Below are positions 1,037-23,536 of a DNA stretch of 33,264 bases, piece by piece. Within the stretch, counting starts at the first letter, position 1; every line of letters begins with the position of its first letter. The position numbers and the translations under genes were made by a program. The stretch is taken from contig JAJYQA010000002.1 of NCBI GenBank assembly GCA_021794835.1, positions 1-33,264 on the forward strand, given 5' to 3'. The stretch is from Actinomycetes bacterium (lineage in GTDB: Bacteria; Actinomycetota; Aquicultoria; Aquicultorales; Aquicultoraceae). Below the pieces are notes generated by a model that saw nothing but the letters and a program-made list of their open reading frames with translations, had not been told where the DNA came from and ran no database searches.

Positions 1037-1717
1037 ATGGTTTTTACTGAAGATCAAAGGCGCGAGATTGACCAGTTGTTAAGTACCAACCTAGACCAGT
1101 CGGTTACCGTCGTATACTTTACTCAGGATGAACCAAGCATAGAATTGCCCGTTTCGGTAGAGGTAACTCCTTGTGAGTATTGCAAGGAAACCGAGGATAT
1201 GCTTAAAGAGCTAACCGGCATATCGGATAAGCTCAACATCGAAGTTTATGATTTCGTAAAGGACAAGGACAAGGTTGAGCAGTATGGAATTGAAGGGGTA
1301 CCTTCACTTGCCTTAGTAGGAGATAAGGACTACGGCATTAGGTATTACGGCATTCCATCAGGGTACGAATTTTCAGCCCTTTTGGATGGGCTTATAAATG
1401 TCTCGAAAAGGCATTCAAAACTAAGCGATAGCACACGGAAAGCGCTTGCCGATATCCAAGAACCCGTTCACATACGTGTTTTTGTCACACCGACATGACC
1501 CTATTGCCCGAGAGCAGCCAGTTTGGCTTACCAAATGGCAATGGAAAACGACAAAATCAAGGCAGAAGTCTTCGAGGCGTCCGAGTTTCCGGATCTTTCG
1601 ATGCGTTATTCTGTGATGGCAGTGCCCAAGACTGTAATTAACGAGAAAACCTCGGTCGAAGGCGCGGTTCCTGAGGCTTCTCTGCTTGCGGAGATCAAAA
1701 GCGCAATTGGCATATAA
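1037..1717 (+). CDS. protein disulfide oxidoreductase (glutaredoxin-like), probable selenoprotein
   Basis: Tandem thioredoxin-fold protein of the PDO family (thermophile protein disulfide oxidoreductase). Such proteins exchange disulfides in the cytoplasm through two CxxC sites. The first site is Cys46-Glu-Tyr-Cys49, followed by the cis-Pro loop in GVPSL. The second should be CPYC, but codon 154 is TGA (1496-1498), giving T-[TGA]-P-Y-C157-P-R. The same frame then continues through a normal second domain with a cis-Pro motif AVPK to a TAA at 1715. Total length is 226 codons, the usual family size. Known biology: bacterial UGA can be read as selenocysteine when a SECIS hairpin follows, and one is present here. 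I therefore infer Sec154 in a U-P-Y-C site. The start at ATG 1037 follows AAAGGAGGAG. Alternatives are a nonsense mutation of TGC or TGT, or a sequencing error. No selenocysteine machinery gene is in the window. Confidence 0.82.
1499..1545 (+). promoter_or_regulatory. candidate bacterial SECIS element
   Basis: Immediately after the in-frame TGA, bases 1501-1508 can pair with 1537-1544 (seven Watson-Crick pairs and one G-U wobble). An apical stem pairs AGCCA 1516-1520 with TGGCT 1524-1528 around the loop GTT (1521-1523). The loop opens with G, and the distance from TGA to the loop is 22 bases. Both fit the published bacterial SECIS pattern (loop 16-37 nt after UGA, G among its first bases). 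Folding was done by eye. Confidence 0.65.
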
Positions 1718-23099: not shown

Positions 23100-23533
23100 A
23101 TGCAGAACAAAAACCATAAAACGAGGATTCTTTTCTTGTGCACCGGCAATTCGGCCCGTAGCCAGATGGCCGAAGGCTGGGCAAGGTATCTAAAGGGCGA
23201 TGTGATTGAGCCATATTCGGCCGGTATTGAGGCTCACGGAGTTAATCCCTATGCCATAGCTGTTATGAAGGAGGCCGGTGTTGATATCTTGGGGCAGCGG
23301 TCCAAGCTTGTGGAAGAAATCATCGATACCGAGCTTGATTACGTAGTGACCCTTTGCGGCCATACCGATGAAACTGCCCTATTTTCTCAGGCAAGACAAA
23401 AAGAATTCACGTAGGGTTCGACGACCCGGCCAAAGCTACCGGGGATGAAGAGGCTATCTTAATGGCGTTTCGCAGGGTGCGGGGCGAGATTAAGACATTT
23501 GTTGAGGGTCTACCGGACTCGCTTGAGAGGTAA
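23100..23533 (+). pseudogene. arsC: arsenate reductase ArsC (low-molecular-weight phosphatase type), frameshifted
   Basis: Thioredoxin-coupled ArsC reduces arsenate to arsenite using three cysteines. The first part is intact: phosphatase loop LCTGNSARS with Cys14, and TLCGH with Cys86. After DE at codon 91 the frame breaks. Reading one base back from 23372 restores [15 protein letters not shown], with the third redox cysteine, and then [23 protein letters not shown] to a TAA at 23531. A single A missing from GAAAAC explains this. Without the shift the product stops at 23414 and lacks the third cysteine. It could be a real pseudogene, a homopolymer sequencing error, or less likely slippage (no canonical slippery heptamer). 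The ATG at 23100 follows AAGGATTGGGG. Confidence 0.85.
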
Positions 23534-23536
23534 CAC

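Follow-up and report, generated by a model that had tools for sequence, protein, structure and literature searches.

The window analyzed here is a 33,264-nucleotide stretch of DNA from an Actinomycetes bacterium of the family Candidatus (Ca.) Aquicultoraceae (assembly GCA_021794835.1, contig JAJYQA010000002.1, positions 1 to 33,264). On its forward strand, at 1037-1717, lies a gene for a two-domain protein disulfide oxidoreductase (PDO) interrupted by an in-frame TGA at 1496-1498, and the RNA following this TGA can fold into a hairpin resembling a bacterial selenocysteine insertion sequence (SECIS). We ask what the TGA and the hairpin mean for the protein.

A probable selenocysteine codon in a PDO gene

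Translation from the ATG at 1037, with the TGA read as selenocysteine (Sec), yields 226 residues followed by a stop codon. In the aligned columns of orthologues and homologues, the TGA (Sec154) is the first codon of the UxxC redox motif in the C-terminal domain. Specifically, the translation carries CEYC in the N-terminal domain and UPYC in the C-terminal domain. The protein matches the family model TIGR02187 (PDO_seleno_TRX) with 267.4 bits, compared to a curated cut-off of 185, and among solved structures its best match is the PDO of PDB entry 1a8l (E 2.5e-44). Both proteins possess two thioredoxin domains with a redox motif in each; they differ in that 1a8l has Cys in the C-terminal motif where the window's PDO has Sec. 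The open reading frame (ORF) list of the window contains a TGA-terminated frame of 176 residues. The true product is probably the 226-residue protein starting at ATG 1037 and containing a Sec redox center, not the listed 176-residue ORF.

TIGR02187 proteins with UxxC are a listed selenoprotein family (PMC13188914). The family has been known since 2006, and both Carboxydothermus and Symbiobacterium have members (PMC1794560). Among the closest known systems is the Sec-containing homolog of the AhpF N-terminal domain, or Grx-like PDO, exemplified by Carboxydothermus hydrogenoformans and Symbiobacterium thermophilum (PMC1794560). The window's PDO shares with the example protein ABB15282.1 the TIGR02187 family, the UxxC motif, and a single Sec per protein, a likeness drawn from family model and motif. 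We take ABB15282.1 to be the C. hydrogenoformans protein. Unlike it, the genes described here belong to Ca. Aquicultoraceae and to other families of the phylum. The window's PDO is thus a fresh member of a long-known selenoprotein family: well supported, not surprising, a good but ordinary example. We found no literature linking Aquicultor with selenocysteine.

A hairpin downstream of the TGA

The apical hairpin spans 1516-1528 on the forward strand (AGCCA-GUU-UGGCU). In it, AGCCA (1516-1520) pairs with UGGCU (1524-1528) around a GUU loop (1521-1523), presenting the N1 G U N N2 pattern as A-GUU-U. Beneath it, an outer stem is formed by a 5' arm at 1501-1508 and a 3' arm at 1537-1544 and includes one G-U pair. 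A previous sequence-only reading had drawn both stems by eye, with a GTT loop 22 bases past the TGA. RNAfold applied to 1490-1550 returns exactly these stems as the minimum free energy (MFE) structure, at -16.2 kcal/mol (z = -2.26), and 22 bases do separate the TGA from the loop G (1521). The z-score drops to -0.93 when the folded segment is 91 nt long.

The published model of the bacterial SECIS (bSECIS) specifies an apical loop of 3-9 nt on an upper stem of 4-16 bp, a G within the first two loop positions, mostly as N1 G[G/U] N N2, a distance of 16-37 nt from UGA to apical loop, and an MFE of at most -7.5 kcal/mol (PMC13188914). The element described here has a GUU loop on a 5-bp stem, its loop G in the context A1520-G-U-U-U1524, and a spacing of 22 nt. 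Its stability passes the threshold only if the outer stem is counted (-16.2 kcal/mol); the apical hairpin by itself reaches -5.1 kcal/mol. An Rfam search of the window at gathering score gave no SECIS match at the PDO site.

How often would such a hairpin follow a TGA regardless of function? As a control, the MFE structures at all 935 other TGAs of the window, on both strands, were put through the same bSECIS-like test. A hairpin of this kind was present at 134 of them (14%), and 9 (1%) also reached -16.2 kcal/mol. Because 14% of the other TGAs pass, the hairpin taken alone is a modest, weak signal for Sec decoding. The sequence-only reading had counted it as independent support; that support comes instead from conservation of the element. 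The same 14% is what favors the idea that the hairpin arose by chance behind a TGA that is read by other means, for example by a suppressor tRNA. Two observations oppose this idea: silent-site constraint in the gene is confined to the hairpin, and tRNA-Sec(UCA) is present in related genomes. Given the codon evidence, set out below, we regard it as extremely improbable.

Conservation among UGA orthologues

A genome search provided seven UGA orthologues, namely the window's gene and those of six other genomes of its family, the latter with 67-90% protein identity. All seven have exactly one TGA; it occupies one and the same column, and the reading frame is open before and after it. Because the TGA is kept within an open frame in every family orthologue found, the alignment excludes a random nonsense mutation as its source.

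Across the seven sequences, 100% of apical-stem cells are paired, compared with 84% for the outer stem. Just 3/7 sequences can pair alignment columns 45/82 of the outer stem, and just 4/7 columns 46/81; the outer-stem positions that are conserved are those fixed by the protein. Since the outer stem breaks at degenerate positions, the aligned sequences identify the apical hairpin as the SECIS proper and leave the outer stem outside the conserved element, even though its arms are present in the window. Thus, of the two-stem element originally proposed, the apical part holds, in 7/7 orthologues, and the outer part does not.

Codon usage provides the strongest evidence. Specifically, 60 columns with an invariant amino acid have four- or sixfold degenerate codons, and only two of these show an identical codon in all seven genes: Ser162 (AGT) and Leu163 (TTG). 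These codons are adjacent and form the loop and its flanks; if columns are treated as independent, the chance that two random columns among the 60 would be codons 162 and 163 is 1 in 1770. The third base is invariant in only 1 of 65 fourfold columns, and that column is codon 161, whose C1519 pairs with G1525. Position 1516, in codon 160, is always a purine and position 1528, in codon 164, always a pyrimidine, which together make the 1516-1528 pair. Finally, no stretch of the gene stays invariant for longer than the 9 nt at 1519-1527; the next longest run is 5. As judged from this alignment, the apical stem and loop are under the strongest synonymous constraint of the whole gene. It is because of this conservation that we consider the hairpin more than chance, and we do so for the apical hairpin only.

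Cys-containing and other UGA homologues

In 22 more distant homologues, mostly from Bathyarchaeota, the Sec column holds a Cys codon. An equally strong hairpin in such genes would have spoken against a SECIS. The full apical stem occurs in register in 0/22 (1-4 of the 5 pairs form), and most fold weakly there. At 33-46% identity these homologues are distant, which makes the comparison less powerful than the codon test. One of them (L129) was considered as a possible counterexample and set aside: it still has a GC-rich stem where the hairpin would lie, but its loop lacks the G.

A phylum-wide sample added three UGA members from two other families. Each has a 6-7 bp hairpin whose CGUG loop starts 20 nt past the UGA, and two pairs are changed on both sides among the three, preserving pairing. 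Separately, a longer TIGR02187-like protein with an 862-residue frame and one in-frame TGA is encoded in another family of the phylum (locus L135, G139:C1:169020-169622, reverse strand).

The window's own genome contains two formate dehydrogenase genes, each a full open frame in which a single in-frame TGA falls at the Sec site (ARLUH). Downstream of the TGA, one carries AGCC-GGUCU-GGCU, and in the other a stem of this kind encloses GGUCU. The two sites match Rfam SECIS_3 (RF01989) with 38.1 and 43.0 bits, both below the gathering score. As in the PDO gene, an AGCC/GGCU stem closes a five-base loop containing G-U (GGUCU in formate dehydrogenase, AGUUU in PDO). The PDO site itself has no Rfam SECIS match. 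With both read as five-base loops, the formate dehydrogenase loop starts after 18 nt and the PDO loop after 21 nt, one codon further. A cyclic di-AMP riboswitch (105.9 bits) was also seen at locus L104 3604-3736 (forward strand), shortly downstream of a formate dehydrogenase match.

The Sec machinery

Several observations weigh against Sec decoding of this gene, the first of which concerns the machinery. In the window's genome (97.8% complete), selA was not found, searches for selB and selD gave nothing over cut-off, and no tRNA-Sec was found; the best tRNA-Sec match was rejected because it is a tRNA-Ser. These absences are what one would expect if Sec decoding had been lost, leaving the TGA and hairpin as relics in a pseudogene or in a gene whose product has one domain and stops at residue 153.

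The genomic context argues otherwise. In relatives, which possess tRNA-Sec(UCA), the gene order is selD-selA-selB-tRNA-Sec, with hypA, hypB, and tatC upstream (the latter names were taken from translations, not from a family search). In the window's genome the whole block is missing, including genes unrelated to Sec. Its contig G000:C21 (4461 bases) has the flanking genes in syntenic arrangement and starts within a DUF72-like gene, which leaves selD ~8 kb beyond its edge. Assemblies of relatives break in the same stretch too, near repetitive KGG-motif genes. In the sister genome G002, at 90% protein identity, a 3.6 kb contig still carries selA, selB, and tRNA-Sec, and in the window's genome the two formate dehydrogenase genes with in-frame TGAs still have full open frames. 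We find loss of Sec decoding very unlikely. The missing sel locus is most simply, and best, explained by an assembly gap, though this is not proven.

One further tRNA-like gene was observed, on contig G000:C18 (locus L010 1501-1592, forward strand). It is 92 nt long, with anticodon GCA (Cys) and a long variable arm, and it scores 44.4 bits against the tRNA-Sec model, for which the threshold is 47.

Competing folds and the proposed mechanism

The remaining points against a SECIS concern structure. Base-pair covariation among the orthologues, which the sequence-only reading had proposed as a check, is present and slight: one pair is changed on both sides, occurring as AU, GC, and GU, and 138/500 shuffles do as well. 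The isolated RNA favors other structures in three of the orthologues (G001, G003, and G004), the hairpins of the phylum's other UGA members sit in a slightly different register from the window's, and masking of the first 12-15 nt lets a competing hairpin win over the apical one even in the window's sequence.

That competitor could itself be the functional structure. It pairs GCCA (1517-1520) with UGGC (1536-1539) and UUUGG (1522-1526) with CCAAA (1531-1535), leaving a bulged G1521 and a CUUA loop. RNAalifold prefers it, all its pairs hold in 7/7 orthologues, and it wins under masking such as a ribosome would impose. Nonetheless, it offers no G at the start of the loop. Its varying positions, the third bases of TAY and CAR codons, cannot break pairs, so its conservation is automatic. 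We rejected it as the principal structure because that conservation follows from codon degeneracy. Furthermore, the purine and pyrimidine restrictions at 1516 and 1528 are explained only by the apical hairpin, and two pairs of the competitor, read by eye, are lost in the UGA members L130 and L131. We judge it quite unlikely to be the functional fold.

Both hairpins can pair in all seven orthologues, which raises the unlikely prospect of a switch between two mutually exclusive forms, the SECIS with its GUU loop and the form with the bulged G. If it exists, the ratio of Sec to stop would be governed by SelB binding or by a ribosome that unwinds the first 12-15 nt.

We conclude, with a probability of roughly 0.94, that 1496-1545 is a canonical bacterial SECIS directing Sec insertion at UGA 1496-1498 in the PDO. 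The notion is that SelB carrying Sec-tRNA(Sec) would use its SECIS-reading domain to bind the apical hairpin at 1516-1528, which presents G1521 and U1522 in its loop, and that the UGA would consequently be decoded as selenocysteine rather than as a stop. The product would be a PDO whose second thioredoxin domain has the active site UPYC, with Sec standing where the usual CPYC motif has its nucleophilic Cys. The analysis shows the conserved TGA, the hairpin and the silent-site constraint on it, the Sec machinery of close relatives, and other TGA-interrupted selenoprotein genes in the same genome; that SelB binds, that Sec is inserted, and that the protein is redox-active, we infer.

Other features

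Two features apart from the PDO gene deserve mention. On contig G000:C18 (locus L010 2575-3090, reverse strand), a match to the 3' part of a transfer-messenger RNA (tmRNA) gene overlaps a group I intron match (47.2 bits, gathering 50), which suggests that this tmRNA gene contains an intron. In the window itself, an ArsC-like arsenate reductase frame at 23100-23534 (forward strand) appears frameshifted near 23370, its C-terminal part continuing in another frame to 23534.

Implications

Reading the TGA at 1496-1498 as Sec corrects the gene model of the PDO. More generally, conservation at silent sites can identify a bacterial SECIS in a case where the hairpin by itself is not enough. Finally, these genes add Ca. 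Aquicultoraceae to the lineages that have a selenoprotein PDO.
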